From Luminiphilus sp. (GTDB lineage: Bacteria > Pseudomonadota > Gammaproteobacteria > Pseudomonadales > Halieaceae), in contig JAQWUD010000050.1 in assembly GCA_029242325.1 (NCBI GenBank), positions 1 through 42,774 on the forward strand: 42,774 nt of DNA, in the 5' to 3' direction. Shown here in pieces: positions 2,747-32,893 of the stretch (position 1 is the stretch's first letter; each line of letters starts with the position of its first letter). The translations under genes and the position numbers were made by a program. The notes beneath the pieces were generated by a model, which ran no database searches, was not told the DNA's origin, and saw only the letters and a program-made list of their open reading frames with translations.

Positions 2747-3266
2747 GGGGTCCCTCACTAATTTTCCCTTATTATGTTGTTCACACTTGACGCACCCCCA
2801 GCTCATTAGGAGTCAGCAACAGCGCCCGTTTTCCTGTCCGCACAAACACTATCACAATCGTCGTAAAATACCCCCAGCAAACCGCATTTTTAGATGATAT
2901 CGATCTGTCACGTTGACTGGGGCGAGACATCAAGTGTGTCCGGTCTAGCGAAGCCGTAACAGTATACCACTAATAGGGCTTAACCGCTATAATTTGAGTA
3001 ATATTCAATTTTATGCGACATCATAACGCGCGACTTGAGCCATGCACTGGGAGATCAGCGCATCTTTTCGTGGCCGGCTTTACACCGGAAGCGCTGTCGT
3101 GTGCTTCATCGTTTCCATCACAAACCGAGCACTCACATCAAAAAGATCCGCTTAACTCGCCTCATAGAATTATACGAAAGGGGGCCCATACCCTCCCATA
3201 AACCTCAAGGCAGCCGGTGCCCCCCTAGATCCTCATACCCGCACGCACCCGCACAGCGCTTTTCGC
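2747..3266. other. Gene-free stretch upstream of TonB-dependent receptor
   Basis: About 520 bp with no convincing gene. On the minus strand an extended -10 element (TGG-TATACT, plus-strand 2961-2969) could drive the receptor gene with a 5' leader of about 200 nt; no good -35 accompanies it. A TATAAT on the plus strand at 2988-2993 has no gene to serve. Short frames at 3013-3292 have neither coding character nor ribosome sites. The long leader could hold a regulatory element, but I see no recognisable riboswitch. Confidence 0.4.
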
Positions 3267-3578
3267 CTAGTCGAGGGACTCCGACACCATGAAAACGGGG
3301 CTATCGGCAAATTGCCGGAACGCTGCGGCCACTGCCTGCATGGCTTCAGTTGCCACCGCCTCTCCAAAATCGCCCATGTCATCGACCTCAATGATCTCTG
3401 AATAGGCATAAGGAGCAGCCTGATCAGAGCCTAACAGGCCTTGAACTTTCAGAACCCGAAAATCGCTACACCCGGGCAAGCTGCGCACATTCGGGATATC
3501 GACCTCTCTCGCCCACGCTTCGTATTCTTGAGCCGTCACCTCGGGCAAGAGGTTAAAAAGCACCACGATTGTCGTCAT
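3267..3578 (-). CDS. HapK/REDY-like small protein
   Basis: A 103-residue protein resembling the REDY-like/HapK family, small ferredoxin-like alpha+beta dimers first noted in prodigiosin-type gene clusters. It opens with the beta strand MTTIVVLFNL, continues through YEAWAREVDIPNVRSLPG, and carries the conserved GLLGSD and YSEIIEVDDM segments, then the C-terminal helix and FMVSESL strand. The ATG at 3578 is preceded by GGAG at about 8 nt; an in-frame TTG 12 nt upstream would add only MEKK and is less likely. No prodigiosin genes are in the window, so the role is unknown. In many marine proteobacteria such proteins sit near catabolic oxidoreductases, which fits the flavin reductase encoded divergently to the right. 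Confidence 0.7.
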   Translation of the reverse strand: MTTIVVLFNLLPEVTAQEYEAWAREVDIPNVRSLPGCSDFRVLKVQGLLGSDQAAPYAYSEIIEVDDMGDFGEAVATEAMQAVAAAFRQFADSPVFMVSESLD

Positions 3579-3745
3579 TTTTTTCTCCAATTAAGTGTCC
3601 ACTAGGGCGCACCATCATGATGCGCTCACCCCACGTCTGGCTACTACCGTAGATTTCAAGCAAGCCACCTTTTGGCCCATGTCGCCCTCACTGCATGGGC
3701 AAGTATGCTTTATAGCGCGCGTCATGACGTGGATCTGAGGTATTC

Positions 3746-5812
3746 ATGACAGCGAGGTTGACGCTTTGGCTCGCTTGGTGTCACCTTGGTGCATCGCTCA
3801 GATTCGGCCCCATTTATAAACCCATGCCCAACAACCCCTTTTTCCCCCAGCTTTTCAGGCCGATTAATATCGGGGGTATCACGCTGCGCAATCGCATTCT
3901 GCACGCCGCGATTGTCACGCAATACGTGGCGCATCACGCGCCAACAGAACGACTGCTCAATTATTACCGTGCTCGGGCTGCCGGCGGGGCCGCTGCCATC
4001 ATCACCGAACCCATCGCGATGACTAAATTTAGTCGTCTGCCCTCTCGTCTGAGATGCTGGGACGATGCGGGTTTGGATGACCTATGCCGAGTTGCCGACG
4101 TGATCAACGCGCACGGGGCGCAGGTGCTGGGGCAGATTCAGGACTCCGGCAGAGGACGGCACGCAGCAGGTCGCAATGATGACGCCGTCGGCGCCTCGCC
4201 ACTGCCAGATGATCTCAGCTGGACCGTTCCGGCGACTTTATCAAGCGGGCAAATACGGCAGATGATTGACGATTGGGCGGAAGGGGCACGGCGACTCCAA
4301 CGCGCGGGATTCGCAGGCGTCGAACTATCGGCAGGCCATGGTCACCTGTTTCACCAGTTCCTCTCACCCTGGTCTAATCACCGATCTGACGAGTACGGAG
4401 GAGAACTCAGAAACCGGACTCGCTTCCTCACGGAACTGATTTCCGCCATCCGCAGCCGCTGTGATCGCCCTTTCATTGTTGCTCTCAAACTACCGGGGGA
4501 CGATGGCGTTCCCGGCGGCATCGATCTCGAAATGGCTTCTAATATCAATGCAGTGTTGGCAGAGCAAGCGGGGGATATTGATCTGTGGACCTGGGTTTGG
4601 GGGGCGCACGCCCGCTCCCTGTATCGGCATCTCCCCGACGCTCACGGGCCACGGCATCCTTATCTGGAAGAGATCAAATCCCTGCGCACACAACACCCTG
4701 GTATCGCGGCCGGCGCGATTGGCTACATGACCGACCCCGGGGAGTGCGAAGCGGCCTTGAGTGACGGCACCGCCGACGTGGTCTTCCTCGGACGGCCCCT
4801 GATCACGGATCCCCAATTTCCCAAAAAAGCAGCGTCTGGCAGGGCCAACGATATTCGTTACTGTGTATCGTGCAACAGCTGCTGGCGAAGCATCATCGAG
4901 GCCGGCGAGCTCGCCTGTGACAACAACCCGGGGGTCGGCGAACCCGAGGAAGCGAGCGCGGCGATCTTGCGTGCCACAGCGCAAAAGCACGTTGTGATTG
5001 TGGGTACAGGCGTGGCCGCTTTGGAGGCCGCGCACATCGCAGCCAAGAGAGGACATCGTGTCACCGTGCTTGGCCGCACTGATGCCATGGGCGGCAAGAC
5101 TCGGCTACATGCTGAACTGCCGGGGGGCGAGAATCTCTCCAGTGTGTACGACTACCAGTTGCTCGCCGCGCAGCAATCAGGTGTGAACTTTGAACTGGGA
5201 CACCAGGCAAGCGCAGAGGACGTGCTCGCTTACAAGCCCGACGTGGTCTTACTGGCTACCGGAGCAAGCGCCGCTTGCCCAGCCTGGCTACCGAGAGATT
5301 GGCATGCGCAGCACCTCATCCCGAGCCTGCGCGACATCGCGCAACAACTTGCATTGGGTATGCCTCACGTCTCGGGACAGGCGGTACTGGTAGACTCAGA
5401 CCACACTGAGATGACCTATGCTGCCGCCATCAGTTTGACCGAGGTTTTTGACCGCGTCACGCTCGTTACTTCCCGCGAACGCTTTGCTCACGATATGTCG
5501 CTGATCAACCGACAGGGCACGCTACAGCGTCTCTTCGACAATAAGGTAAGGTTGATTAACCACGTCGAACCGGACAGCCTGAATCAACTGGAGAACGGCA
5601 TACTGCTCCTGAAAAACGTGTATAACAATGAAATAGAGACGCTTGACGACGTCTCAACGCTCATCCACGCCAGCAGCAGAGTGCCCAATGATGCCCTGCT
5701 GTTGCCCCTCTGCTCGCTCGGGCTAGAGGTCATTTCGATCGGCGATTGCCGGGCACCCCGATCACTGATGGCGGCGACGCGGGATGGCTATCTCACTGCC
5801 AAGGCGCTCTAA
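3746..5812 (+). CDS. FMN/[4Fe-4S]/FAD oxidoreductase of the trimethylamine dehydrogenase / 2,4-dienoyl-CoA reductase family
   Basis: A two-part flavoenzyme. Numbering from the internal ATG at 3824 (662 residues, the family's usual size), residues 8-340 form an Old Yellow Enzyme-like FMN barrel with GHGHLFHQFLSPWSNHRSDEYGG at 171-193. Cys347, 350, 353 and 365 make a CxxCxxC-x11-C iron-sulfur site, and a GTGVAALEAA nucleotide-binding turn near 394 begins the FAD/NAD(P) domain. The CxxCxxC spacing is that of trimethylamine dehydrogenase rather than the CxxCxxxC of E. coli FadH. The enzyme should transfer electrons between NAD(P)H or a donor and an enone or amine substrate in the cytoplasm. Start choice: ATG 3746 has GAGG five bases upstream and would add 26 residues, while ATG 3824 fits the family N-terminus but lacks a ribosome site. 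Substrate unknown. Confidence 0.85.
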   Translation: MTARLTLWLAWCHLGASLRFGPIYKPMPNNPFFPQLFRPINIGGITLRNRILHAAIVTQYVAHHAPTERLLNYYRARAAGGAAAIITEPIAMTKFSRLPSRLRCWDDAGLDDLCRVADVINAHGAQVLGQIQDSGRGRHAAGRNDDAVGASPLPDDLSWTVPATLSSGQIRQMIDDWAEGARRLQRAGFAGVELSAGHGHLFHQFLSPWSNHRSDEYGGELRNRTRFLTELISAIRSRCDRPFIVALKLPGDDGVPGGIDLEMASNINAVLAEQAGDIDLWTWVWGAHARSLYRHLPDAHGPRHPYLEEIKSLRTQHPGIAAGAIGYMTDPGECEAALSDGTADVVFLGRPLITDPQFPKKAASGRANDIRYCVSCNSCWRSIIEAGELACDNNPGVGEPEEASAAILRATAQKHVVIVGTGVAALEAAHIAAKRGHRVTVLGRTDAMGGKTRLHAELPGGENLSSVYDYQLLAAQQSGVNFELGHQASAEDVLAYKPDVVLLATGASAACPAWLPRDWHAQHLIPSLRDIAQQLALGMPHVSGQAVLVDSDHTEMTYAAAISLTEVFDRVTLVTSRERFAHDMSLINRQGTLQRLFDNKVRLINHVEPDSLNQLENGILLLKNVYNNEIETLDDVSTLIHASSRVPNDALLLPLCSLGLEVISIGDCRAPRSLMAATRDGYLTAKAL

Positions 5813-5974
5813 AGAGAGCCGGTAGCGTGCTTTGTACCCATAAAAATCGCGGACCAACCCATGACACCGGGGCGCCCTCATGCTTTTTACTGCCCGCTTA
5901 TCCAAATCCTAAGAGGACAGGCTCCCCCGCCTCTGTCAAACTGAATCCAGAACGTAGCGACTCGATTTCTCACC

Positions 5975-7768
5975 ATGCACCCAAGCTCTGAAAAGGCACT
6001 GTCCGCTATGAGAACCGGTGATCTGATCACCGCTTGCTCGCTCTTCGATCAGTCCATCTCGATAGAAACAAATCCACACTGTTTATTTCAGGCTGCACTG
6101 TGCTACCGGAAGTCCGAACGCCTCAACGACGCGCTGTCTTTACTCAAACGCCTGGAAGAACAAGGCGACACCAATCCGCCCGCGCTGCTGTTACGTGCCG
6201 ATATTTTTTCCGCGATCGATCGGCACCACCACGCCCTGCCACTCTATCAAGCCCTTGCTGGCATCGAAGATGCGCAAATTCAATATTCAGCCGCCCTGGG
6301 TCTCTTTCAATGTAGCGACATTGAAGCGTCTCTTCAGCTTGCCACTGCCCTGTCTGAAGGTGGCGACAATGCCCTGAGCCACCAAGCCAGGCTGTTGAAA
6401 GGACGATGCCTGGCCGCCGCGCAACGCTACGATGAAGCTAGGCAAACCTTCAGCGAAGTCGAGGCCGCACCCGCATTAAAAAAGGCTGCGCGTTACCGAA
6501 CCGCGCGACTGGATCTTCATCTTGGCCACTTTGCCGCCGCTGAAACGGCGTTAAAAAACTTACTAAAAATAGATGAGCCGCCTCGCGGTGCGCAAGAAAC
6601 TTTGCTGCAAACACTCGTTCACAGTGGTCAAACTGACCTAGCGCTCAATATGGTCCAGGCAGCAACCGATAAGGGCTGTGACTTGTCCTGGTTACGCCAT
6701 GGGACTGAGCTTCTGTCGGAGCTTGATGCGCCGGAGCCTTTACAACTGCTCACGTCACGCTGGGATGCGGCGCCAAGGCCAGATATTTTTCGGGAATTAT
6801 GCAGTCGGCTCCTCGAGGCGGATGACCTCTCGCAAGCAACCGCTTTACTCGCAGACTATGCCAACGCGTTTGGAGAAGATACGCATTGGCAATGGGTACG
6901 CATCCGCCTTTTGGAAAAAGAGGAGGCCTACGAGGAGGTGCTCCAGCTACATAATGCTGACCCGTTCAGCTCAATGGAGATCGTCTGCCACGCCTACTTT
7001 GCACTGGGGCGCTATGAGCAAGCCTTTGAAACGGCCCAGCGACTGTGCCGTTCAGCACCGGGCGATCAGTATTTCATTGCACTGCTGGCAACAGCACTAA
7101 GATGTCTCGATGACCCGCGGCAAGCGGCCCTCATTGATCCAAAATTACTATTTACCCGCGACCGGCTTTTGGAATCCAGGCCCGACGGGGGCACTGACTT
7201 ACCCTTTTGGATGGCGGCCCAGGGTGCGATCGCGCAACACCACAGTATGAAATCTGCACCTCCCACCCAATCGGTTGTGGGTGGTATTCAAACGCCCGGC
7301 AACCTGCTCGTTCAGACCCAAGAGCTAGCACTTCTTAAGCTGAAGACTTTACTGAATGAGACCGCTCAGGACTTTTTTGACAACGCCCTGTTTCCGGACT
7401 TGGCAGAGCCGCATCCCCTGCGCCTGTTTCGACCCAAAGACATCACGATGCACGCCAGCTGGGCCATTCAAGGCAGGGCCGGCACCTATCATCACTCCCA
7501 CGTGCACAGTAAAGGGTGGTACAGCGGTACCTGTTACATCGAGGTGCCAGAGAGCATCGAGGACGGTGACAAAGCGGGTCACCTCATTTTGGGCGAGCCC
7601 CCTTTTCGAACCAAGCATGCATTACCCCCAATCGCGACCATCCGCCCCACCGTGGGGAAAATGGTGCTGTTTCCCAGCTATTACTGGCACAGCACTCGCC
7701 CTTACTCGGGAGGAGGACAACGGCAGGTCGTGGCCTTTGATTTTGGCCTAGAAAATCGGTTTGTTTGA
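5975..7768 (+). CDS. TPR protein with C-terminal putative 2OG-Fe(II) oxygenase domain
   Basis: A 597-residue protein with helical TPR-like repeats over roughly residues 1-420 (many Ala-rich helices, ALGRYEQAFETAQRLC-type units) and a C-terminal double-stranded beta-helix oxygenase from about 440 on. Candidate iron ligands are the histidines of HHSHVH (506-511) and His572 in YYWHSTRPYS; Arg575 may bind the 2-oxoglutarate carboxylate. This resembles the family of putative 2OG-Fe(II) oxygenases often fused to TPRs. The TPR part probably recruits a protein or peptide target for hydroxylation, which is inference. No signal peptide, so cytosolic. It starts 162 nt after the flavin reductase on the same strand and could be co-transcribed. 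The ATG at 5975 lacks a clear ribosome site; ATG 6008 is an alternative. Confidence 0.8.
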   Translation: MHPSSEKALSAMRTGDLITACSLFDQSISIETNPHCLFQAALCYRKSERLNDALSLLKRLEEQGDTNPPALLLRADIFSAIDRHHHALPLYQALAGIEDAQIQYSAALGLFQCSDIEASLQLATALSEGGDNALSHQARLLKGRCLAAAQRYDEARQTFSEVEAAPALKKAARYRTARLDLHLGHFAAAETALKNLLKIDEPPRGAQETLLQTLVHSGQTDLALNMVQAATDKGCDLSWLRHGTELLSELDAPEPLQLLTSRWDAAPRPDIFRELCSRLLEADDLSQATALLADYANAFGEDTHWQWVRIRLLEKEEAYEEVLQLHNADPFSSMEIVCHAYFALGRYEQAFETAQRLCRSAPGDQYFIALLATALRCLDDPRQAALIDPKLLFTRDRLLESRPDGGTDLPFWMAAQGAIAQHHSMKSAPPTQSVVGGIQTPGNLLVQTQELALLKLKTLLNETAQDFFDNALFPDLAEPHPLRLFRPKDITMHASWAIQGRAGTYHHSHVHSKGWYSGTCYIEVPESIEDGDKAGHLILGEPPFRTKHALPPIATIRPTVGKMVLFPSYYWHSTRPYSGGGQRQVVAFDFGLENRFV

Positions 7769-8052
7769 CCCTTGCCGGTTTGTGATGCTCGGGCTATCGA
7801 TGCCGGCCTTTCACTGTAGTCATCAGCACAAATTCATGATGAATCGGGGTGCCCAATGCTTTTTGCTCCGCAAGACACAACGTGACGCGCATGGGGTTGC
7901 GGCCAAAGGCACTGTGTGAAGCGTCGAGGTAAGGTCCTCTACAACAAACATTAGCGGCGCGTGCCGAGCATCCCGCTCGAGGAGATCATTCCGGTGTCAG
8001 CATGCCGCGCCTAGTAGCGCGGAACACATGAGGCGCTCCAGCTCTCATAAAG

Positions 8053-10218
8053 CTAGCACGGCTGGATCTGCGCCCGGAATTTTCGCAATCTCCACCAGGC
8101 AGCGAAACCCATCATCACGGCGGTGAACAAAAGTGAGAGATAGGTGACGGCAGGAATTGGCCGCGCGCGCTCTTGTGAATCAGCCACTGACTCGGAAGGC
8201 CGGGGCGGAGCAACAGATCGCCCCGACGCCGCCATGCCGGTAGCGACGCGGGTCTGCGCCAACACTGAGTCGAGCAAGCTGACAAACAGGCCCTCAGGGC
8301 CCTCAGGTGCCACCGCAGGGGGATCGGGATCCGAATCAACACCGCCGTCACCGACTTCGAAATACGCCTCAATCGTGCAGTCGTGCAGCACCGAACTCAC
8401 CGTATAGGCACCCCCCTCGACCTCGCCTTTACAGCTTCCTTCAATATTGGCTAGCCGGTAACCACTGTCGGGCACAAAGCGAAATTGCTGCGTGTCACCT
8501 ACCTTCAGGAATTTCCCTGTGTGGCCGTCTACACGCCCCCCCGAAGAGGTAGCGATTGTGACTCTGGCATAGTCACCCTGGTACCCTTCCTCCCACGGGA
8601 TATGAATCGACTCATACAGATTCCCCGATACGGGATCGACATAGGTGATCCAGGACTCCAAGTAAGTATTACCGTAGGGGTGCATTTCATCCTCTGCGAT
8701 GCACTGATCAAAACCGAATTCCCGCTCTTCCCCAGCCCTCAGCATGGACTCTCCCGCCGCATAGGTTTCAGATAGCACCTCTCCCTGTGCAGTCATCACG
8801 GCAAACTCACGAATCTCAACACCATACTGGGTTTCGTTCATCATCGAGTGGCCGCGGAGGACCCCCCGCCGCCCCGCCGGCAACTCACAGCCCCCCTCGT
8901 GGCGATGATGGACAATCAATTCATGGGTCAGTCGATCAGAGTAATAGCCGGCCACCATGTGACGAGTATTGGTAAAACCGGCGGCGTTGTCCGCTGATCG
9001 GGACTCGCCCGCGGGCACACCACAGAGAATTTGGGTGCCATAAAAGTCCCCACACGACACCTCGGGGTTTGAGAAGAAATATTTTTCGTCCTCACTGCCA
9101 TAGCTCATGATCGTTTTGAGCCAGCCCTTCCTGTAGTGACCGAAACTGAACGCATAGGCGCCAGTGTCCCCTTCCTCATACAAGCGTCGCTCATGCATTG
9201 ACCCCAGAATATGTCCGACTTCATGGGCAAAGGTGGTGTCATCACAAAAGCTGCCGCTTGTGCCTTGTTCGAGCGGATTCCAATGCACCGAAGAGACGTA
9301 CAGGCGACGCCAGGGAAAACCCTGATCAACACCGATATAGGCGATGCCACAAGATGAATCATCCTGCGGTATTTGGTCCCTGATGGCGATCACCAAATCC
9401 GCTTCAAGAGCGGCACGATCTTCTTCTATGGCCGTGAAGGGAGGCTCTCGGGAAAACATACTGGTCAACAGGTCACTCTGCGTAGTCTGGTTTGAAATCG
9501 TCATGCCTGTGAGGCCCACCAGTTTCAGCTCTATATTGATATCACTGTCGACCATGGCCTGATTGCTGATCTCCACCATGAGGTCTGCGATGACAGCCGG
9601 ATCCTTGGTCATATCATCGTCGTGGTAGATCAGCACGTCGATGGTGGCGCTACCCAATAAATAACTGGGGAATCTGACATCCTGCAATTTCAGTGCAGGC
9701 GAGGACAAGGCGGGCCGCGAGTACTGCTCTATGGATGGTCTGGCAGGATCAGGTGGACCGGGATCTCGCTTTGGGCGCTGTGGCAGCGACCGGCTAGATT
9801 CTGCAGGTAAACGCTTCTGGGTCGTGGCCGGAGATATCAGCTTTCCCTGCCTGAGTGAGCCGGCCAGCCGATGGCGACCCTCAGCATTCTGAATAAACCC
9901 TTCGATGACCTCACCCTTGCTAACGATCAACAGTAAGCGATAGCCCTCTGATGTCGTGCCTGACAAGACCGTATTACCCAACTCACTCTGGCGTACCATC
10001 GACAGTTCGAATGGGGAAAGTGGTTTCTGATCCGCACCGGCAAGTAAGCGATCACCTGCCTTCAATGCCTGGACCTGCCGGAACGTCTCGACCGTGGCAC
10101 GATGCGACCCCAGTTGTACCTGAAGGCGCAGGGACTCATTGGCGTTAGCCGCCAAAGGCATCACCAGCGCATATAAAACAAGCAAGGAAGTTAATAGGTC
10201 TCTCATACTGACGCGCAT
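8053..10218 (-). CDS. Secreted metzincin (reprolysin-like) zinc metalloprotease with C-terminal membrane anchor/sorting tail
   Basis: A 721-residue exported protease. A signal peptide spans about residues 1-27 (cleaved after ANA), a propeptide-like region runs to about 180, then a metzincin catalytic domain carries HEVGHILGSMH (His332, Glu333, His336, His342) and a Met-turn IMSY at 370-373. Several Cys pairs suggest disulfides outside the cytoplasm. Residues about 555-622 resemble a divergent InlB-type B-repeat (GGRVDGH, FVPDSGY, GSCKG). A low-complexity Pro/Ser linker follows, and the end is PIPAVTY, a hydrophobic helix and a basic tail (RLRKFR), the layout of a C-terminal sorting or anchor signal. 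GGAGG precedes the ATG at 10218 by about 11 nt. It probably degrades proteins outside the cell or at the surface. Confidence 0.87.
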   Translation of the reverse strand: MRVSMRDLLTSLLVLYALVMPLAANANESLRLQVQLGSHRATVETFRQVQALKAGDRLLAGADQKPLSPFELSMVRQSELGNTVLSGTTSEGYRLLLIVSKGEVIEGFIQNAEGRHRLAGSLRQGKLISPATTQKRLPAESSRSLPQRPKRDPGPPDPARPSIEQYSRPALSSPALKLQDVRFPSYLLGSATIDVLIYHDDDMTKDPAVIADLMVEISNQAMVDSDINIELKLVGLTGMTISNQTTQSDLLTSMFSREPPFTAIEEDRAALEADLVIAIRDQIPQDDSSCGIAYIGVDQGFPWRRLYVSSVHWNPLEQGTSGSFCDDTTFAHEVGHILGSMHERRLYEEGDTGAYAFSFGHYRKGWLKTIMSYGSEDEKYFFSNPEVSCGDFYGTQILCGVPAGESRSADNAAGFTNTRHMVAGYYSDRLTHELIVHHRHEGGCELPAGRRGVLRGHSMMNETQYGVEIREFAVMTAQGEVLSETYAAGESMLRAGEEREFGFDQCIAEDEMHPYGNTYLESWITYVDPVSGNLYESIHIPWEEGYQGDYARVTIATSSGGRVDGHTGKFLKVGDTQQFRFVPDSGYRLANIEGSCKGEVEGGAYTVSSVLHDCTIEAYFEVGDGGVDSDPDPPAVAPEGPEGLFVSLLDSVLAQTRVATGMAASGRSVAPPRPSESVADSQERARPIPAVTYLSLLFTAVMMGFAAWWRLRKFRAQIQPC

Positions 10219-10293
10219 GTGTGTTGGGCCTCCGAGCGAATCACGCTCTCCAAGACGATATACTAGAGCGCCCAGACGGATTCACAAACTACC

Positions 10294-10713
10294 GTGCCCG
10301 ACCTTGCGAAACCCAATTTGTACGCCATTTATGATGCGGACAACACCGTGATGGGGGAGGTTCGGTATGCCCTGCAAAAAAGCATCGGCAAACCGGCCTG
10401 CGCACTATGCGACATCACCCATGCCTGGAATCCAATAGGCAAACACGCTTGGCGCAACCGCAAGGGCCTCAGCCACAGCATGCACTGGCTTCATCGCAAT
10501 GAGGTCTCATCAGAACTGAATCAGATGCTGGGTCGGCAGACATTGCCCTGTGTAGTGGCAGAAATCGGGCACCATTTTGAAGTGCTGATAAACAGTGTCA
10601 CCCTCGCTGGCTGCGAAGGCGAGTTCACTGTATTTGAGCATCTTTTGGAGCAAAAAGTGCGGGCGCTGCTCGCTCGGCAAGCGCCCGCGGGTGAGGCTGA
10701 GAAAAACGATTAA
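10294..10713 (+). CDS. Conserved hypothetical protein with CALCD-ITH motif
   Basis: A 139-residue soluble protein from a GTG start, divergent from the metalloprotease gene. It begins LYAIYDAD, then GEVRYALQKSIGKPACALCDITHAWNP, with the two Cys and following His (CxxC-D-I-TH) suggesting a metal or redox site. The middle (LPCVVAEIGHHFEVLINS) is strand-rich and the end helical. It gives the impression of a conserved bacterial family of unknown function, but I cannot name it. No ribosome site precedes the GTG, and its stop overlaps, tail to tail, the last codon of the degenerate gene on the other strand. The codon pattern and the length without stops support it as a real gene. Confidence 0.6.
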   Translation: MPDLAKPNLYAIYDADNTVMGEVRYALQKSIGKPACALCDITHAWNPIGKHAWRNRKGLSHSMHWLHRNEVSSELNQMLGRQTLPCVVAEIGHHFEVLINSVTLAGCEGEFTVFEHLLEQKVRALLARQAPAGEAEKND

Positions 10714-11080
10714 GGCGCCGCCGCGTAAACCACCCGCTCCGCCTTCAGCTTCGCCAGCTCTGCCATTACCTAGGGGTTGTATTGCTCAGCGCCCATGGCC
10801 GTCGCATGATCTCCAAAGAGGTGCCAGTAATAGAGCTCTCCAGGGCCGTATAGCCTGCAGATGGGACACAGATACCGCCCACGGCAGCATTGATTGACTC
10901 GGCGATCGCCTCGCCGCTGCCCTGTACCCACTGCACATAAGCGGCAGGGTTTTTGGTATTGATTGTCATCGCCGGCCGCGACCACGCCTGACTCGCAATG
11001 AACATCACACAGCACGCGGCTAACGCGCCCATTCGCCAAGGGGTTTTATCATGAGGCACATCTCGCGCCTTTTTTTTCAT
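10710..11080 (-). pseudogene. Degenerate small exported protein gene (frameshift plus internal stop)
   Basis: Two overlapping minus-strand frames join into one plausible protein. The first part (from ATG 11080) has a signal-like N-terminus (ALAACCVMFIASQAWS) and runs to AAVGGICVPSAGYTA. The sense then continues in another frame as PGELYYWHLFGDHATAMGAEQYNP. One missing C in the run at 10843-10845 (plus-strand GGG) would restore TAPGELYYW. An amber codon at 10770-10772 follows QYNP, and the frame carries on with VMAELAKLKAERVVYAAAP to a stop at 10710-10712. The continuous sense across both lesions points to a recently broken gene or two assembly errors. It is downstream of the AhpD-like gene on the same strand. 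Function unknown. Confidence 0.65.
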
Positions 11081-11135
11081 ATTTACAGATGAAATGTCAT
11101 GGGGTGAGGCGTCCCGCGCCTAAACCAGGCCTGCC

Positions 11136-11528
11136 TCATTCAAACATCTGCATAAAGGTATCCATATCGAACTGATTGCCGTAAAGCATGGATGAGTTCA
11201 ACGCTACATCGGCAGCGATGGCCACAGCCGTTTTGATCTCTTCCTCTGTGGCACCGGCAGCACGCGCAAAGGACGTATGCGCAGGGATGCAATAAACACA
11301 TTTCATAGCGACCGAAGCGGAAATCGCAGCCAGCTGGGCATGCTTCAGGGGGATAGCACCGTTGAAAACATTTTTCTCCACCGCCGCGTAATACGCTTCA
11401 GCCGCCGCCTGTTGAGATTCGGGATGCAGCAGAATGAAGGGATTTGCCGTTTTTACCTCACGCATCTCATCTTCAGCCAGCACCAGCGGATTCAATATCA
11501 GTAAGCACAACGCTGTCAGGTATCGCAT
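11136..11528 (-). CDS. Exported AhpD-like / carboxymuconolactone decarboxylase family protein
   Basis: A 130-residue protein with a short signal peptide (MRYLTALCLLILNPLVLA) and an all-helical AhpD-type domain. The redox motif is Cys77-Val-Tyr-Cys80 followed by His84 (KCVYCIPAH), as in alkylhydroperoxidase AhpD, where the Cys pair and His reduce peroxides or disulfides. Export to the periplasm is less common for this family, which is usually cytosolic. The ATG at 11528 is preceded by AGGAG; the frame is open further upstream but lacks a better start. It lies 141 nt downstream of the desaturase-like gene on the same strand. Confidence 0.82.
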   Translation of the reverse strand: MRYLTALCLLILNPLVLAEDEMREVKTANPFILLHPESQQAAAEAYYAAVEKNVFNGAIPLKHAQLAAISASVAMKCVYCIPAHTSFARAAGATEEEIKTAVAIAADVALNSSMLYGNQFDMDTFMQMFE

Positions 11529-11669
11529 CGGTTTTCTCCTGTTCCGAAATGTTATTCGACTACGCCCAACCCTGCGACGGACTGAGTGCTGTTCAGGTCG
11601 ATAGTAAACCACGTCTGTAGGATGAGGCCCAATACTCGGCGGTTGCCGCCAGATGCGGGTACCGGCGCA

Positions 11670-26346: not shown

Positions 26347-26374
26347 TTTACACTTGTAGCTTTAGAACAATAAT
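26347..26374 (+). promoter_or_regulatory. Candidate sigma-70 promoter for the second TonB-dependent receptor
   Basis: TTTACA (26347-26352), a 16-nt spacer, and AATAAT (26369-26374) each match the sigma-70 consensus at five of six positions. The receptor ATG lies 35 nt beyond the -10, giving a short leader. Read by eye only. Confidence 0.45.
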
Positions 26375-26409
26375 CATTTTCCTTGGCCACGAGAAATAAG
26401 GGAGCCAGT

Positions 26410-29241
26410 ATGTCTCATCCCCAACGTTTTCAACGCGCGCCGCTTGCCGCAGCGCTAGGCGTCGCACTTTTACCGCTTGTTGCAAGTCCCGTTCATGCTC
26501 AGCTAGAGGAGGTAGTAGTCACCGCCACCAAGCAAGCTGAGAGCCTCCAGGACGTGCCTATTTCAGTTAACGCGCTGTCCGGTGACTCGATGCGCGAGCA
26601 GGGCATCATGACTTTCGACGAATACGTCAACTTTTTACCGAATGTGGTCGATGCCGGTAATGCACCGGGAATGAGGGAAATTTACATTCGCGGTTCTGCG
26701 ACGGAGCAAGGCTCCGTAACCGTCTCCTCTGCACAGGGATCAGCGCCGGGCGTGGCGCTCTATCTCGACGAGACGCCAGTCTCTTTCGGAGGCCGAAACC
26801 TTGACGTCTACGCGGCCGACTTGGAGCGCATCGAGGTGCTCGCAGGCCCCCAAGGAACTCTGTTCGGCGCCAGCTCTCAAGCCGGCAACATGAGAATGAT
26901 CACCAACAAACCGGTTATCGGCGAAATGCAAGGCCGGGTGGATGTCGGCATGTCATCGACGCATGGCGGTGATACCAGCAGTAATGTAGAAGGCATGATC
27001 AATATGCCTATCGGTGACAGTTTGGCTATTCGCGCGGTGGGCTACAGCAATCGCCAAGGCGGCTGGATCGACAATACCGCTTCAACGTTTACCCCTTCGG
27101 GTCCCGTTGTCGATCGTAACTCTATCGGTTACGGCCCTTACTTTAGAAACTTCCCCGACACCGTCGTCAGCAGCGTCAGTAACTCAGAGGAAGTCAAAGA
27201 CGACTGGAATGAAGCGACCTATAACGGTTTCCGTGTTGGTGTTCAGTGGGATGTATCTGATGACTGGAGCCTGCTGGTTCAACACTCCTCTCAGAAGCTC
27301 GATGTAGAGGGATCATTCCTCATCGACCCCAGCCTTGGCGATGACAAGTCGGCCAAGTTTCAGCCAGAAAGTAACGTCGATGAATTCGACTTGACCACGT
27401 TGACCATTGAAGGGCGTGTTGCCGGCCTTGATATTGTTTATGCCGGTGGTTACCTCGATAGAGAGATCGACTCGATCATCGACTACACCCACTACAACAA
27501 CGGTGGCGGCTACATCACTTATTACCTTTGCAGCGGCAACATTTACGCTGACCCGGGCCCTTCAAACCAGAACACCTGCTTTGACCCCCGAAAAAGGTAC
27601 TCAGATACCACCACCAATGAGCGCACCACGCACGAGCTCAGAATCAGCACGGATCCTGATCGCCGCTGGCGTGTAATGGCTGGGGTCTACTTCAGCGATG
27701 TAGAAACCAAAACGCTGGGTGAATTCCAATACTATTCTACCGGTGACGCCTTCAGTGACTTCCAGGTGCAGTATTATGGCGCGGCCGCTCAGTCGCCCTA
27801 TCAGCTGGCAAACGAAACGATCCCGGGTGTAGCGGGAACCAATCAAGTGGGTCCCACCGGGCCACTCACCACCTTCTATAACGATTACTCGCGAACCGAG
27901 GAGGAACTGGCCTTTTTCGGTCAGTTAGCATTCGATATTACCGATAATCTCACCGCCACTATTGGCGCTCGAAAATATGATCTCGAGACGCAGTTACAAG
28001 GCGCATCGAACTTCTCCTTTGGTTGCCGCTATGGCGGTAATGGCGGCGGCGGCGCTTCCGCAGGATTCTGTAACAGCCACCGCTTCAGTAATAGTCCAAC
28101 AGATCGCTTCACGGCATTAGGCGCCTACAATGCAGGTAGCCTCTCAGACGAGCAATTCTTGGGCCTTCTCAACTACCCAGGGGCAGCAGGAACTTACGGC
28201 GGCAGCGCCAAGGAAATGTTCCGGGGCGGCGGCAGTAATGCAGCAACGCTGCAGGCTATTAAAGAAGGCCGGCTTGATATTTCGAGCATCAACAGCAGCG
28301 GTGTCACTGAAGAGGACGACACGATCATTCGATTCTCTCTGGATTGGAGAATCAATGACGACATCATGCTTTACGGTATTTATTCAGAAGGATATCGACC
28401 CGCGGCCCAGAACCGGAACGCTGGCCAATTAGCGAGCAACCAATCCGGCATCTATGAAGGCTATGTGGTGCCCGCAGTGGCGACGACTGATGAGCTGGAG
28501 AACATGGAGTTGGGGATTAAGTCAGAGCTTTTTGACAACACTCTGCGACTCAATGCCAGTATTTATAGCACCGAGATCACTGATCTGCAGGTCGCTCGAT
28601 TTGACCCGTCCAATGTCGCGTTTTTGGTATTCCTAGAGAACGTCGGTGACGCCGAAACGCGCGGTCTGGACGTTGACTTTATGTGGGCGGTCACTGGGCG
28701 ACTCACTCTGTCGGGTGCAGCAAGCATTCTCGACACAGAGCTAACGGCTATTAATAAGCAGTTACAAGGAGTCAGTGTTCCTAAGGGATCTGAGTTGCCA
28801 TTGGCGCCCAGCTTCTCCGGCAATATCCGCGCGCGTTACGACTTTGACATTATGAACGGCAATGCTTGGGTAAATGCCGCATTGGTTTACCGTGGTGAAA
28901 CCGTCACCGGTATCGTCGGAAGCGCCGAGTTTATGACCGATACGCACAATCTCGCGTATGGTAATGACCCCGGTATCAGCATTCAGAACGAGGGCGGCAC
29001 TTTTGGTACGGTGGCCACATCAAACGGCAACATTCCCTCCAACTCTCGCTACGTGAATGATGCGGCAACCACGATGAATATAGGTTTGGGTTACGCGCGA
29101 GAGAACTGGACTGCAGAAGTCTTTGTGAATAACGTCACTTCAGAAGAAGGGTACGTTGTGCAGACTGCTGGTAAATTCACCCCTGAATCCAGCATGATGC
29201 GCCCACGCACGTTGGGCTTACGTTTCGGGTATTCTTTCTAA
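26410..29241 (+). CDS. TonB-dependent outer-membrane receptor
   Basis: A 943-residue TonB-dependent receptor. A signal peptide (about 1-30, ending SPVHA) leads directly to the TonB box LEEVVVTATKQ. The plug contains IRGSATEQG, the motif LERIEVLAGPQGTLFGASSQAGNMR, and the barrel ends in LRFGYSF. It is longer than the first receptor in this window, with Cys-containing and Gly-rich barrel loops (around FGCRYGGNGGGGASAGFC). The ATG at 26410 follows GGGAG by 5 nt. A strong terminator lies 24 nt after the stop, with the TPR-sulfotransferase gene starting just beyond. Receptors of this type next to TPR-sulfotransferases are common in marine proteobacteria; the ligand is unknown. Confidence 0.93.
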   Translation: MSHPQRFQRAPLAAALGVALLPLVASPVHAQLEEVVVTATKQAESLQDVPISVNALSGDSMREQGIMTFDEYVNFLPNVVDAGNAPGMREIYIRGSATEQGSVTVSSAQGSAPGVALYLDETPVSFGGRNLDVYAADLERIEVLAGPQGTLFGASSQAGNMRMITNKPVIGEMQGRVDVGMSSTHGGDTSSNVEGMINMPIGDSLAIRAVGYSNRQGGWIDNTASTFTPSGPVVDRNSIGYGPYFRNFPDTVVSSVSNSEEVKDDWNEATYNGFRVGVQWDVSDDWSLLVQHSSQKLDVEGSFLIDPSLGDDKSAKFQPESNVDEFDLTTLTIEGRVAGLDIVYAGGYLDREIDSIIDYTHYNNGGGYITYYLCSGNIYADPGPSNQNTCFDPRKRYSDTTTNERTTHELRISTDPDRRWRVMAGVYFSDVETKTLGEFQYYSTGDAFSDFQVQYYGAAAQSPYQLANETIPGVAGTNQVGPTGPLTTFYNDYSRTEEELAFFGQLAFDITDNLTATIGARKYDLETQLQGASNFSFGCRYGGNGGGGASAGFCNSHRFSNSPTDRFTALGAYNAGSLSDEQFLGLLNYPGAAGTYGGSAKEMFRGGGSNAATLQAIKEGRLDISSINSSGVTEEDDTIIRFSLDWRINDDIMLYGIYSEGYRPAAQNRNAGQLASNQSGIYEGYVVPAVATTDELENMELGIKSELFDNTLRLNASIYSTEITDLQVARFDPSNVAFLVFLENVGDAETRGLDVDFMWAVTGRLTLSGAASILDTELTAINKQLQGVSVPKGSELPLAPSFSGNIRARYDFDIMNGNAWVNAALVYRGETVTGIVGSAEFMTDTHNLAYGNDPGISIQNEGGTFGTVATSNGNIPSNSRYVNDAATTMNIGLGYARENWTAEVFVNNVTSEEGYVVQTAGKFTPESSMMRPRTLGLRFGYSF

Positions 29242-29264
29242 GAGTCCCTGTAGCAATAATCAAA

Positions 29265-29292
29265 GGGCGATCACCTGATCGCCCTTTTTTTT
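29265..29292 (+). terminator. Rho-independent terminator after the TonB-dependent receptor
   Basis: A perfect 9-bp stem (GGGCGATCA, loop CC, TGATCGCCC) is followed by eight T. It lies only 13 nt before the ATG of the next gene, so either transcription reads through at a low level or the next gene has its own start inside the receptor gene. Confidence 0.9.
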
Positions 29293-29305
29293 GGGACACA
29301 ATTTG

Positions 29306-31318
29306 ATGACTGACCCTCGCGCCCCGTCGCCGGCACTCGAAACAATCCAAACGAAGCTCGCCAGTGGTGCGCTGGATGAGGCAGGCACCCTGATTGATGA
29401 ACTGCTGGTGGACTTTGCAAGCGACCCTAACCTCGCCTACCTGAGTGCACTGCGTTATCGACTCACGGCTAACGCTGCCAAGGCGCTTCAAACGCTCTAT
29501 GACCTGACCGCGCGCTTCCCCGATATGGCCCGGGCGCATCAAGAAATAGCCATCAATTCACTCAGCAGTAATTTACCTCAAAAAGCGCTGGAGGCAGCCG
29601 AAGCAGCGGTAGCGCTAGACGGCTCGTTACTAGCGTGCTGGGAGTTGCTCGCGCCACTCCACCAGCGTTTCGTTCCCGAAAAGCAAGAAGCCACAGCACA
29701 GCAGATCGCCTTTCTCAAGTCGTTACCGCAGGAGCTGAGAACGGTGATGAGTTATTTGTCACAAAATCAACTCAACGATGCCGAGCGTTTGTGTAAATAC
29801 TTTCTACGAGACAACAAGACTCACGCGGAAGGCATGCGATTGCTCTCAGAGGTGCTGACACGAAAAAACATATTGGACGAGGCGCAGTTCTTATTAGAAA
29901 CACTGCATCAGTTGGAACCTGACAATGTGACTGCTGCCGTTCAGCTCTTCCACGTCATGATGCGGCGTCAGCGCTTTCATACTGCCTATGACTTGGCAGC
30001 CACGTTATGGCAGCAACAACCGCAGGATGATGACCAAATTAAAAAGGCCTACGCAGCGGCTTGTTTTGCTGTCGGGCAAACAGAAGAGGCCGAGCACCTG
30101 TATCAGGCGCTTCGAAAAACCCACCCAACCGATCACCATATCCCTATCAGCCAAGGCCACATCTATAATGCGAATGGCGACAAAGCGGCCGCCATCGCTG
30201 CTTTTCAAGAGAGCTCATCCATCAAGCCAGATCATGGCGACGCCTACTGGAGCCTGGCCAACACCAAATCCTATCGGTTTGACGATCCACAGATAACGCG
30301 AATGAAGGCGTTGGAGCAGTCTGCCTCAATTGGCGGTATCGATCGCATTCAGATTTGCTTTGCCTTGGGGAAAGCGCTGGAGGACGGGGAGCAATACGAT
30401 GCCGCGTTTGAGTATTATGCTCGCGGTAATGCCCTGAAACTGCCCACCACGCACTTCAATCCAACACAATTGTCGAAGCGCATCACGGCACAGATTAGCG
30501 TCTGCACCCAGGCATTATTTGAGCAACTCGGACCCACCGGCACGGAGTCGCCCGATCCTATCTTTATCGTCGGTCTACCTAGGGCTGGATCCACACTCCT
30601 TGAACAAATTCTGGCATCGCATTCTCAAGTCGATGGCACGATGGAGCTCCATAATATTTTGGACCTCGCTAAGCGACTGCGAGGTCGAGACGAGGCGGGC
30701 GCGACCGAGCCTCGCTATCCCAGAATACTCGGGGAACTCGACACACAACTCTTCACTCAGTTCGGAGAGCAATTCATAGAGCAAACACGTGTCTATCGCA
30801 GTGATGCGCCGTTCTTCATCGACAAGATGCCCAATAACTTTTTCCATGTCGGGTTAATCAAACTCATTCTCCCCAATGCCAAAATCATCGATGCGCGACG
30901 TCACCCCATGTCCTGTTGCTTCAGTGGCTACAAGCAACTGTGGGGTGAAGGGCAGGAGTTTTCTTACGGATTGACTGAGATCGGCAGCTATTACAAGCAA
31001 TACACTCAGTTAATGGCGCACTGGGATACGGTACTGCCTGGTTTCGTTTTGAGAGTTCACCACGAGGACGTGGTGAATGACCTTGAGAGTCAAGTAAGAC
31101 GGATCCTGGATTTCTGCGGACTGCCGTTTGAAGACGCCTGCTTGAATTTTCATGAGACGGAGCGAACGATCAGAACACCGAGCGCTGAACAAGTGAGACA
31201 GCCCATCTATCGCTCCGGTCTAGATCAATGGCGCAATTTCGAGCAATATCTGGACCCCTTGAAGCACGCTCTCGGAGAAGAGCTACTTGATGCTTATGGC
31301 ATCACTCCGCCACCATGA
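29306..31318 (+). CDS. TPR-repeat sulfotransferase
   Basis: A 670-residue protein with TPR-like helices over residues 1-380 and a sulfotransferase domain from about 415. The PAPS 5'-phosphosulfate loop is GLPRAGSTLLEQ (423-434), and the 3'-phosphate segment is RRHPMSCCFSGYKQ after DKMPNNFFHVGLI. It would transfer sulfate from PAPS to a hydroxyl or tyrosine of a target that the TPR part probably binds; the target is unknown. No signal peptide, so cytosolic. The ATG at 29306 is close behind the receptor's terminator; a TTG at 29303 is also in frame. Its stop overlaps the start of the next sulfotransferase as ATGA. Confidence 0.9.
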   Translation: MTDPRAPSPALETIQTKLASGALDEAGTLIDELLVDFASDPNLAYLSALRYRLTANAAKALQTLYDLTARFPDMARAHQEIAINSLSSNLPQKALEAAEAAVALDGSLLACWELLAPLHQRFVPEKQEATAQQIAFLKSLPQELRTVMSYLSQNQLNDAERLCKYFLRDNKTHAEGMRLLSEVLTRKNILDEAQFLLETLHQLEPDNVTAAVQLFHVMMRRQRFHTAYDLAATLWQQQPQDDDQIKKAYAAACFAVGQTEEAEHLYQALRKTHPTDHHIPISQGHIYNANGDKAAAIAAFQESSSIKPDHGDAYWSLANTKSYRFDDPQITRMKALEQSASIGGIDRIQICFALGKALEDGEQYDAAFEYYARGNALKLPTTHFNPTQLSKRITAQISVCTQALFEQLGPTGTESPDPIFIVGLPRAGSTLLEQILASHSQVDGTMELHNILDLAKRLRGRDEAGATEPRYPRILGELDTQLFTQFGEQFIEQTRVYRSDAPFFIDKMPNNFFHVGLIKLILPNAKIIDARRHPMSCCFSGYKQLWGEGQEFSYGLTEIGSYYKQYTQLMAHWDTVLPGFVLRVHHEDVVNDLESQVRRILDFCGLPFEDACLNFHETERTIRTPSAEQVRQPIYRSGLDQWRNFEQYLDPLKHALGEELLDAYGITPPP

Positions 31319-31938
31319 TTTTTTCGGAGTCCCGGAAATTTATATTTTTTGCTGTACCCAAGACTGGGACCCATGCTGTCAGAGCAGCGCTGCGACCGCA
31401 CCTATCAGCATCTGACTGGGAGCAGCAGCTCCGTTATGGGCAGCAGCTCTCGCCACTGCCCGAAATCGCTGCCATTAATCATGGTCACGTCAGTTATCAG
31501 CAAATTTCTGATGTGATAGGTGAAGGCGCTCTAACAACATTTTTTCGGTTTGCTTTTACGCGACACCCCTTTGATCGTTTTGTGTCGGTGTGCGCTTTTT
31601 TAGCAAGAACCGATGCCAGCTATATCGAGAATCCGACGGGGTGGATGAAGCGAGCGCTACAACGTCCGCAGTTTCGCCAGCGAGTGCTAGTCGCGAGTCA
31701 ATCTTCGTTGTTGTCAGATCAATACGGCGGCATAGCGCTTGATTATGTAGGGCGATTTGAATCTCTGCAGACTGATTTTGACGCGATCTGCGTCCGACTC
31801 GGACTGCCGACAGTGTCTCTTGAGTTTAAGAACACGTCTGCGCATGAAGCCTTTCAAAAGCTGCTGGATGATGAGCTAAGAGAAGTATTGTGGGAGCGTT
31901 ATGAAGAGGACTTCGCTACTTTTAATTATTCCCCGTAA
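31315..31938 (+). CDS. Sulfotransferase family 2 protein
   Basis: A 207-residue single-domain sulfotransferase of the family that includes carbohydrate sulfotransferases. The 5'-phosphosulfate loop is VPKTGTHAVRAAL (about 13-25) and the 3'-phosphate region FAFTRHPFDRFVSVCAFL (about 78-95). Only weak end-domain features follow, with FESLQTDFDAICVRLGL matching the usual C-terminal part. It starts by ATGA overlap with the TPR-sulfotransferase, so the two are translationally coupled. Its 3' end overlaps the convergent hydroxylase-like gene by 17 nt. Two different sulfotransferases in one unit suggest two acceptor sites or a paired function. Confidence 0.87.
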   Translation: MIFSESRKFIFFAVPKTGTHAVRAALRPHLSASDWEQQLRYGQQLSPLPEIAAINHGHVSYQQISDVIGEGALTTFFRFAFTRHPFDRFVSVCAFLARTDASYIENPTGWMKRALQRPQFRQRVLVASQSSLLSDQYGGIALDYVGRFESLQTDFDAICVRLGLPTVSLEFKNTSAHEAFQKLLDDELREVLWERYEEDFATFNYSP

Positions 31939-32893
31939 CAAACTCTTGTGCTCGCTGCGGTTTCAAGGCTGCCGCCAACAACCGCTGACTGATGATTGGA
32001 TTGATACCGACCTTGTTGGATTGGGTCACTAGCACTCTAGGATTCGGTCTCAGCCCAGCCTGCGTTCTGTGCAGCAGCGCTTGATATCCTTCGATGCCCC
32101 CTGCCATGAAACCGTATAGAGACCAATGACTGCGCCAATCGTGCACCAGATCGAACAGCAGGTCGTGATAGTACTGCACGATGGCAGCATCATTATCGGG
32201 ATTGGCTGCGCAGTCTGCTATCAGTTCAGTAACAATGGCTGACATCTCTCCAGGCGCCATGACAGGCGCTCCCGGGAAGCGCTCAGTCGTCAGATGAGGC
32301 CTCAGATTGTCATCATAGGCAACTCGGGTCATAACACCCGAGCCAGGAGTGCGCTGCACACGCCGAACCATCTGCCAGAACTTCGCGGAGCCCGCGATAT
32401 CGATGACCAGATGAATGCGGTCTGATGAGCTGCCGTTGATCACCCGGTGCCGGCGCCATGAATCAAAAAGCCAAGCTTCACCAGCTGCCATATGCACTTC
32501 TTCCGGGCCACAGAAAAAACGCACAGAGGGTTCCGTCATAATCGGCACATGGATTCTGATTCTGCTGTACCAGTGATAATTAAAATCGACATGTTCCTGA
32601 ACTTCTGCGCCTGGGCTTAAGCGCATCAGTCGACTCCGCGCCACAACTTCATCAAAACTGCTCACCACCTGCATCAAATACGGGGAGTCTTGCAGCACTA
32701 TGGTCGCGGCCATCTGGCCGTCGAAACCATCTTTGAGCTCACCGTTAATCGCAACGAGTGGAACAGCGCTATTACCTGCCAATCCTGAGGGGTGTGGTAA
32801 CCAGAGCTGGGGTGACAATCGGCTCACTTCGTCTGCCAGCATCTCCGGGTCGAAGAGGCAGGGGAGCTGTAAAAATGGCCGGTCCAGTTCCAT
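31922..32893 (-). CDS. Aspartyl/asparaginyl beta-hydroxylase-like 2OG-Fe(II) oxygenase
   Basis: A 323-residue protein whose residues about 60-170 match the Asp/Asn hydroxylase domain: an HVDFNYHWYSRIRIHVPI segment with His101-x-Asp103, then CGPEEVHMAAGEAWLFDSW and RHRVINGSSSDRIHLVIDI with His149 as distal iron ligand and Arg159 as likely 2OG ligand. The C-terminal half (about 180-323) is unassigned. It should hydroxylate a protein, peptide or amino-acid side chain using oxygen and 2-oxoglutarate. AAGGA precedes the ATG. It begins 9 nt after mmsB on the same strand, so it may be the last gene of the valine operon, yet it converges with, and overlaps, the sulfotransferase gene; either link may be the functional one. 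Confidence 0.85.
   Translation of the reverse strand: MELDRPFLQLPCLFDPEMLADEVSRLSPQLWLPHPSGLAGNSAVPLVAINGELKDGFDGQMAATIVLQDSPYLMQVVSSFDEVVARSRLMRLSPGAEVQEHVDFNYHWYSRIRIHVPIMTEPSVRFFCGPEEVHMAAGEAWLFDSWRRHRVINGSSSDRIHLVIDIAGSAKFWQMVRRVQRTPGSGVMTRVAYDDNLRPHLTTERFPGAPVMAPGEMSAIVTELIADCAANPDNDAAIVQYYHDLLFDLVHDWRSHWSLYGFMAGGIEGYQALLHRTQAGLRPNPRVLVTQSNKVGINPIISQRLLAAALKPQRAQEFVTGNN

Follow-up and report, generated by a model that had tools for sequence, protein, structure and literature searches.

What does a TonB-dependent receptor (TBDR) have to do with two sulfotransferases of different families and with a putative aspartate/asparagine beta-hydroxylase, all encoded side by side? This question is raised by a locus in a 42,774-nt stretch of Luminiphilus sp. 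DNA (contig JAQWUD010000050.1; the whole stretch is referred to below as the window). The first-pass annotation had described a TBDR, a sulfotransferase with tetratricopeptide repeats (TPR-sulfotransferase), a second sulfotransferase and a hydroxylase-like gene. The gene order and families, the ATGA coupling of the two sulfotransferase genes (4-nt overlap at 31315-31318) and the 17 nt shared by the convergent second sulfotransferase and hydroxylase-like genes (31922-31938) were all borne out by coordinates and Pfam matches (Table 1). It had also proposed that the sulfotransferases, and perhaps the hydroxylase, modify the receptor, a peptide or the imported ligand. As for the TPR-sulfotransferase, a tyrosine cluster in the receptor and a tyrosylprotein sulfotransferase (TPST) fold in the enzyme favour the receptor, an attribution made less firmly for the other two proteins. 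In our judgement, the locus is likely to encode a TBDR together with enzymes that modify it post-translationally, with the TPR-sulfotransferase sulfating tyrosines of receptor loop L4 before export.

Table 1. Coordinates in the window of the features of the receptor-sulfotransferase locus (ORF, open reading frame)
Feature	Position	Strand	Characteristics
TBDR, subgroup A3 of paired receptors	26383..29241	+	952-aa ORF from TTG, likely ATG 26410; PF00593 7e-26, PF07715 5e-12
Receptor loop L4, residues 368-403 (ORF numbering)	27484..27591	+	Tyrosine cluster Y368, Y371, Y377, Y380, Y381; Cys 383, Cys 399
Receptor Asp 408 codon, just past L4	27604..27606	+	Candidate hydroxylation site; covariation with the hydroxylase-like gene
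Hairpin resembling an intrinsic terminator, with a T run after it, in the receptor-enzyme gap	29262..29287	+	11 pairs, 6 G-C
TPR-sulfotransferase	29291..31318	+	675-aa ORF, likely ATG 29306; PF13469 4e-53 plus TPR families
Second sulfotransferase, Sulfotransfer_2 family, 207 aa	31315..31938	+	PF03567 2e-15; 4-nt ATGA overlap with the TPR-sulfotransferase gene
Asp/Asn beta-hydroxylase-like protein, 323 aa	31922..32893	-	PF05118 4e-15; convergent

The source genome (2.76 Mb, 96.5% complete) possesses five PF13469 genes and 26 TBDRs. Four of these five genes sit one to three genes from a TBDR and, since the genome has 26 TBDRs in 2.76 Mb, the four-gene grouping exceeds chance; the fifth, a deacetylase fusion, has no TBDR within the 13 kb taken. 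The three PF05118 genes all share their stretch with a TBDR. When the source genome and sampled relatives were considered together, 65 of 71 TPR-sulfotransferases lay within three genes of a TBDR vs. none of 20 non-TPR controls of the same family. The TBDR was the immediate neighbour in 49 of the 71 cases, on the same strand in all but one of these 49, and for three of the six TPR-sulfotransferases lacking a near TBDR the stretch ended less than 500 bases away. This comparison was built, from the matches listed, on 60 regions picked as TPR-type by open-frame length and 20 controls; a gene was counted as TPR-type if it matched a TPR profile or was 455-470 aa long (region L121 had no sulfotransferase by profile, and L126 turned out to be TPR-type and was counted as such).

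A wider set was formed by the best 80 of 449 GTDB relatives, from alpha- and gammaproteobacteria (Alteromonas, Colwellia, Erythrobacter, Hellea, Woeseia), of which 76 loci were counted, the enzyme having been lost in ORF calling in L181, L204, L206 and L209; two of the contigs (L211 and L246) duplicate others sampled as L082 and L079. The TBDR was directly upstream and on the same strand in 73 of the 76, and in 70 the two genes are separated by no more than 200 bases. The enzyme of one of these relatives, Halieaceae bacterium L167, is 90% identical to that of the window. For 108 clade A pairs (clades are defined below), the distances in the receptor and enzyme trees showed a correlation of 0.91, the best of 500 permutations reaching 0.15. 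These mirrored trees partly reflect shared descent, and much of the correlation is to be expected from joint vertical descent by itself. The first-pass annotation had named two ways in which the link could fail, namely co-occurrence at chance level and the lack of a shared phylogenetic distribution: the former is contradicted by both neighbourhood counts, the latter by the matching trees. The association between TPR-sulfotransferases and TBDRs is real. In the open-access literature searched, in the portions accessible, no description of this pairing was found, nor one of sulfotyrosine in connection with TonB-dependent proteins.

The converse does not hold, since only four of the 26 source-genome TBDRs have a TPR-sulfotransferase and most TBDRs lack one. 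Among 114 genomes drawn across the class, the source genome included, a close relative of the receptor was found in three and one of the TPR-sulfotransferase (E ≤ 1e-40) in 16; the enzyme family is therefore wider than the receptor clade of the window. Concerning plasmids, 10 of 37 records were viewed. A TBDR lies within three genes of the TPR-sulfotransferase in L301, L303, L306 and L307 and farther away in L305, an autotransporter stands beside it in L304 and L308, neither is annotated nearby in L309 and L310, and the unannotated L302 has a large ORF on the opposite strand. L304 corresponds to positions 5347-11560 of pENTE01 from Enterobacter sp. 638, where a GT8 gene separates enzyme and autotransporter, and L308 to positions 3188-7182 of a Thalassospira marina plasmid.

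The receptor has the plug (PF07715) and beta-barrel (PF00593) of its family, also in the predicted structure (AlphaFold; pLDDT 83.9, pTM 0.86), in which 22 strands were counted by inspection; in the PDB it is best matched by other TBDRs, FyuA and Fiu among them. L4 is predicted to be extracellular, a long loop that joins model strand 349-367 to strand 404-422. The tyrosine content of 59 paired TBDRs, falling into clades A (43), M (6) and S (10), was compared with that of 50 unpaired TBDRs from the source genome and its relatives. The maximum number of tyrosines per 24 residues averages 7.2 in paired vs. 4.1 in unpaired receptors, and at least six are reached by 47 of the 49 clade A and M receptors, three of the 10 in clade S and two of the 50 unpaired ones. 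Relative to shuffles of the same proteins (at most 20 proteins per group), the mean tyrosine density z-score is 3.1 in subgroup A1, 5.5 in A2, 3.1 in A3, 6.8 in clade M and 2.3 in the wider set, vs. -0.05 in clade S and -0.14 in unpaired receptors. Among 66 receptors of the wider set, 64 have at least five tyrosines and 42 at least six (13 and two, respectively, of the 50 unpaired ones). Placed on the window model, the peak falls in L4 in 39 of the 43 clade A receptors and, by alignment, in L5 in all six of clade M; it is scattered in unpaired receptors.

Tyrosine makes up 22.6% of L4 in clade A vs. 4.3% in unpaired receptors. Phenylalanine, compared for the L4 of clade A, accounts for 8.3% (A1), 3.4% (A2) and 2.7% (A3) vs. 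6.8%; the hydroxyl group seems to matter, because a general aromatic patch would raise phenylalanine as well. Across 47 aligned receptors, Y371 and Y381 are invariant, followed by Y368 (46), D367 (45), C383 and C399 (44 each), Y380 (40) and Y377 (32). In metazoans, according to the accessible part of a published study (PMC9372746), TPST substrates whose affinity is moderate or higher mostly carry an Asp directly before the acceptor tyrosine. An acidic residue followed by tyrosine ([DE]Y) occurs in the peak windows of 18/18 A3, 12/12 A2, 6/6 M and 65/66 wider-set receptors, as well as in 6/10 of clade S and 20/50 unpaired ones. The strict motif DY..Y.{3,14}[YF]Y.C was found in 17/18 A3, 8/12 A2 and 54/66 wider-set receptors, and in none of the A1 (13), M (6), S (10) or unpaired (50) ones; as it misses A1 and M, tyrosine density was used as the measure. 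The measure was also applied forwards, on a small scale: in G048 (eight tyrosines) and G054 contig 51 (six), the tyrosines were counted before the catalytic part of an enzyme had been seen, and additional DNA then revealed a TPR-sulfotransferase in both. G054 contig 28 (at most three tyrosines) had none, and in G054 contig 36 the sequence ended too early. Of three further G054 homologues, whose enzyme was already visible, two have five tyrosines and one has four, the latter being a miss.

Two other proteins were observed next to paired receptors. One, of 324 aa (L094:7850-8824, + strand), adjoins a paired TBDR, has eight tyrosines in 24 residues and is possibly a second substrate. The other is a family of about 313 aa without Pfam or NCBIfam match, whose gene comes between those of enzyme and receptor at several A1 loci (e.g. 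L050:8546-9487, - strand; L016:8697-9629, + strand); in the PDB, it matches the designed propeller Tako8 over a short stretch and has weak matches to WD40 proteins.

The model of the TPR-sulfotransferase (pLDDT 92.9, pTM 0.88) consists of a TPR superhelix (residues 13-413) and a TPST-like domain (418-674) with the fold of sulfotransferases using 3'-phosphoadenosine 5'-phosphosulfate (PAPS), as expected of a TPST. Among the structural matches listed by VIA-align, the top seven rows for the sulfotransferase domain are all TPSTs. R431, E452, 21 residues further on, and K512 align with TPST2 residues, which we take to be its 5'-PSB arginine, its glutamate and its conserved lysine; the three are invariant in 53 homologues, and the spacing of the R431-E452 type is retained in 124 of 125 clade A, clade M and wider-set enzymes. 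OGT is among the closest natural matches of the TPR arm, a likeness that suggests a protein substrate. By eye, no signal-peptide-like start is seen at the N-terminus. An APS kinase gene is present.

Between receptor and enzyme genes, the gap leaves no space for another gene and holds the terminator-like hairpin alone. Such hairpins were found in 87 of 102 same-strand receptor-enzyme gaps (35-320 bases, including 25 bases of the enzyme gene) vs. 11.4 expected from shuffles, 84 of them strong, and the stems shown differ in sequence among loci. This arrangement fits an abundant receptor and catalytic amounts of enzyme. A promoter-like match starting at 26347, where the region delimited by the first-pass annotation begins, carries no weight, since the scan gave a single such site vs. 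a mean of 4.9 in shuffles.

From these features, we infer the sulfation reaction, its timing and a role for its product as follows. The TPR-sulfotransferase would bind the unfolded receptor precursor in the cytoplasm through its OGT-like arm, and its TPST-like domain would move sulfate from PAPS to several L4 tyrosines. Once exported and inserted, the receptor would bear at its mouth a sulfotyrosine-rich, strongly negative patch, which might bind a basic ligand or change how phages or bacteriocins recognise the receptor. With a leaky terminator between them, the two genes would yield abundant receptor and catalytic amounts of enzyme, and the hydroxylase-like protein (candidate site Asp 408) and second sulfotransferase could add a hydroxyl and another sulfate, respectively, to the same loop.

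Several observations weigh against sulfation of the partner receptor. Clade S pairs, 10 of the 59, lack the cluster on average, and it is also missing from the plasmid TBDRs of L301, L306 and L307 (Asticcacaulis, Pseudoalteromonas and Novosphingobium capsulatum) and the autotransporters of L304 and L308. A universal rule, by which every partner of a TPR-sulfotransferase would be clustered, is ruled out by these cases, and the claim is therefore confined to enzymes of the window type (clades A and M); other TPR-sulfotransferases may accordingly target other residues, glycans or sites elsewhere, and the family may act on other surface proteins through a different reaction. Six tyrosines are reached by no more than 42 of the 66 wider-set receptors, five being also reached by 13 of the 50 unpaired ones, and the paired receptors of L093, L186, L244 and L254 have four at most. 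The receptor of L016 (9707-12241, - strand), inside clade A, keeps six tyrosines without an adjacent TPR-sulfotransferase, its locus having a 313-aa partner and a hydroxylase-like gene. Only two of 13 A1 peak windows contain [DE]Y. Clade A being a single lineage, independent gains of enzyme plus cluster number about two. As for the enzyme, the best PDB sequence matches of the catalytic domain are CurM-type sulfotransferases, with TPST behind, and the structural comparison extends to the families among the matches listed, so that others may match as well.

Could the enzymes act instead on a small molecule or a ribosomal peptide, imported by the receptor or exported, so that the receptor is linked to them through uptake of the product? 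Strong hydroxylase-like homologues in L290, L292, L293 and L294 stand beside, or are fused to, a sulfotransferase with no TBDR match in the stretch fetched and, in the part of PMC10040529 available, a Pontixanthobacter gene table gives, by cluster number, sulfotransferases and an aspartyl beta-hydroxylase next to lasso-peptide, PqqD and asparagine-synthase genes. Against this, no exporter, biosynthetic or glycan gene was found among the 10 main ORFs of the window scanned with Pfam (a selection from a list of ORFs of at least 80 aa), the receptor-enzyme gap offers only its hairpin, and a modified product does not predict a tyrosine cluster in two separate receptor clades. This explanation is considered unlikely. 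A surface glycan (lipopolysaccharide or capsule) working with the receptor is a very improbable target. PF13469 does include many carbohydrate sulfotransferases, and in Enterobacter sp. 638 a GT8 gene comes after that of the TPR-sulfotransferase, with the autotransporter next; the scanned ORFs lack glycan genes, the structural matches listed for the catalytic domain are TPSTs and the OGT-like arm suggests a protein.

The tyrosine-rich loop might also be an ordinary ligand-binding trait, and the enzyme a co-inherited neighbour with another substrate. Clade A is monophyletic, L016 aside, clade S offers pairs without the cluster, and joint vertical descent is expected to mirror the trees, all of which this explanation accommodates. 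It sits poorly with a cluster located in different loops of two unrelated receptor clades, both of them paired, with an L4 enriched in tyrosine and not in phenylalanine overall in clade A, and with an adjacency held in 73 of 76 loci from two classes. Surface loops are usually variable, and the invariance of Y371 and Y381 in 47 receptors is hard to reconcile with an ordinary trait. We regard it as improbable, and sulfation of the partner receptor is retained: bacteria with clade A- or M-type pairs probably sulfate their own receptors.

The two additional enzymes may add marks to the same receptor, as their linkage, domain fusions and a covarying Asp suggest. For the second sulfotransferase, no PDB match was found by sequence up to an E value of 1, nor any substrate residue. 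The PF05118 match of the hydroxylase-like protein (56.4 bits vs. a cut-off of 22.6) covers profile positions 55-154 of 157, and its best PDB sequence match is L-proline cis-4-hydroxylase (4p7w, 2.7e-7). The four-gene set recurs in genomes of the same genus (L059, L066, L071, L080 and L081, and with cut receptors L068 and L052) as well as in L167, L168, L169, L176, L178 and L237, some of them split or cut by contig ends; in Asticcacaulis L301, all four families form one co-directional run in a different order. Hydroxylase-like and sulfotransferase domains are fused directly after the TPR-sulfotransferase in L173 (8992-10923, + strand) and L180 (9028-10917, + strand), and another such fusion is found in L294 (6576-9668, - strand). 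Among 293 genomes of the order, eight besides the source have a strong hydroxylase-like homologue (E below 1e-60), with a sulfotransferase adjacent or fused in seven vs. a TBDR in the stretch in four (L287, L288, L291 and L299). The pairing of hydroxylase and sulfotransferase thus reaches beyond loci with this receptor, as would suit a relay and also other substrates. The stretches of weak homologues (L295-L298 and L300) showed neither sulfotransferase nor TBDR match.

Asp 408 is a candidate hydroxylation site, judged from covariation: 14 of 17 receptors accompanied by a hydroxylase-like gene have Asp here vs. one of 74 where none was seen, the absence being uncertain where contigs stop short of the hydroxylase position (e.g. 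L171 and L177). Two of the exceptions, L209 and L287, belong to the same receptor family and carry Glu; the third, L291, is a different receptor. An initially perfect covariation (14/14 vs. 0/21) was undone by added loci. On the receptor tree, Asp 408 appears in three lineages, all with the hydroxylase-like gene, and one gene-bearing lineage has Glu; one node between them has a support of 0.20.

Two neighbouring observations concern the same gene types. In L058, L061, L062, L074 and L082, flanking genes of similar lengths enclose another receptor and TPR-sulfotransferase without the two extra genes; their receptors and that of the window have similar signal peptides and different mature parts, so that the site looks like one of cassette exchange. 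On source contig C26 (L015), the companions of a TBDR without tyrosine cluster are a TPR-sulfotransferase, two oxygenases, one of them being the terminal 2-oxoglutarate oxygenase domain of a TPR protein, and a protein with an Asp/Asn hydroxylase domain.

On balance, we consider it probable that the locus represents a real and widespread type of receptor modification for which no description was found, with tyrosine sulfation of the partner's surface loop as the best-supported mechanism. A broader proposition is put forward tentatively, at somewhat under even chances: many alpha- and gammaproteobacteria would chemically code their receptors, TPST-like enzymes with TPR arms, sometimes in relay with a hydroxylase-like protein and a second sulfotransferase, each placing sulfotyrosine and hydroxylated, possibly sulfated residues on chosen surface loops of its own dedicated receptor, and thereby giving ligand and phage specificity beyond the genome sequence. 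If so, protein tyrosine sulfation would be a common bacterial surface modification, parallel to receptor sulfation in animals, and the ligand and phage specificity of such receptors could neither be read from sequence alone nor be reproduced by expressing the receptor by itself.

Compared with known systems, the window enzyme differs from metazoan TPST1 and TPST2, Golgi membrane enzymes without TPR arm according to the accessible text of PMC9372746, by its long TPR arm, its start devoid, by eye, of a signal-peptide-like sequence, and a gene tied to one receptor. The bacterial enzyme RaxST of Xanthomonas sulfates tyrosine in the cytoplasm, ahead of secretion (PMC9372746, PMC4216712, in the parts available). 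The likeness to RaxST and RaxX, drawn from their description only, lies in the presumed cytoplasmic sulfation of tyrosine before export; RaxX, a small peptide, is secreted and has export genes dedicated to it, whereas the presumed target here is an outer-membrane receptor, with no export gene among the ORFs scanned. OGT and SPINDLY share the TPR superhelix joined to a transferase domain and are glycosyltransferases, the window enzyme being a bacterial sulfotransferase. The hydroxylase-like protein resembles PF05118 Asp/Asn beta-hydroxylases and L-proline cis-4-hydroxylase by family and PDB sequence match, and is distinguished by being encoded with sulfotransferases, to one of which it is fused in L173 and L180. 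Finally, the receptor shares plug, barrel and, by inspection of its model, 22 strands with the siderophore receptors FyuA, Fiu, PiuA and FhuA, from which it is set apart by a tyrosine-rich, Cys-containing L4 and by an enzyme gene of its own.
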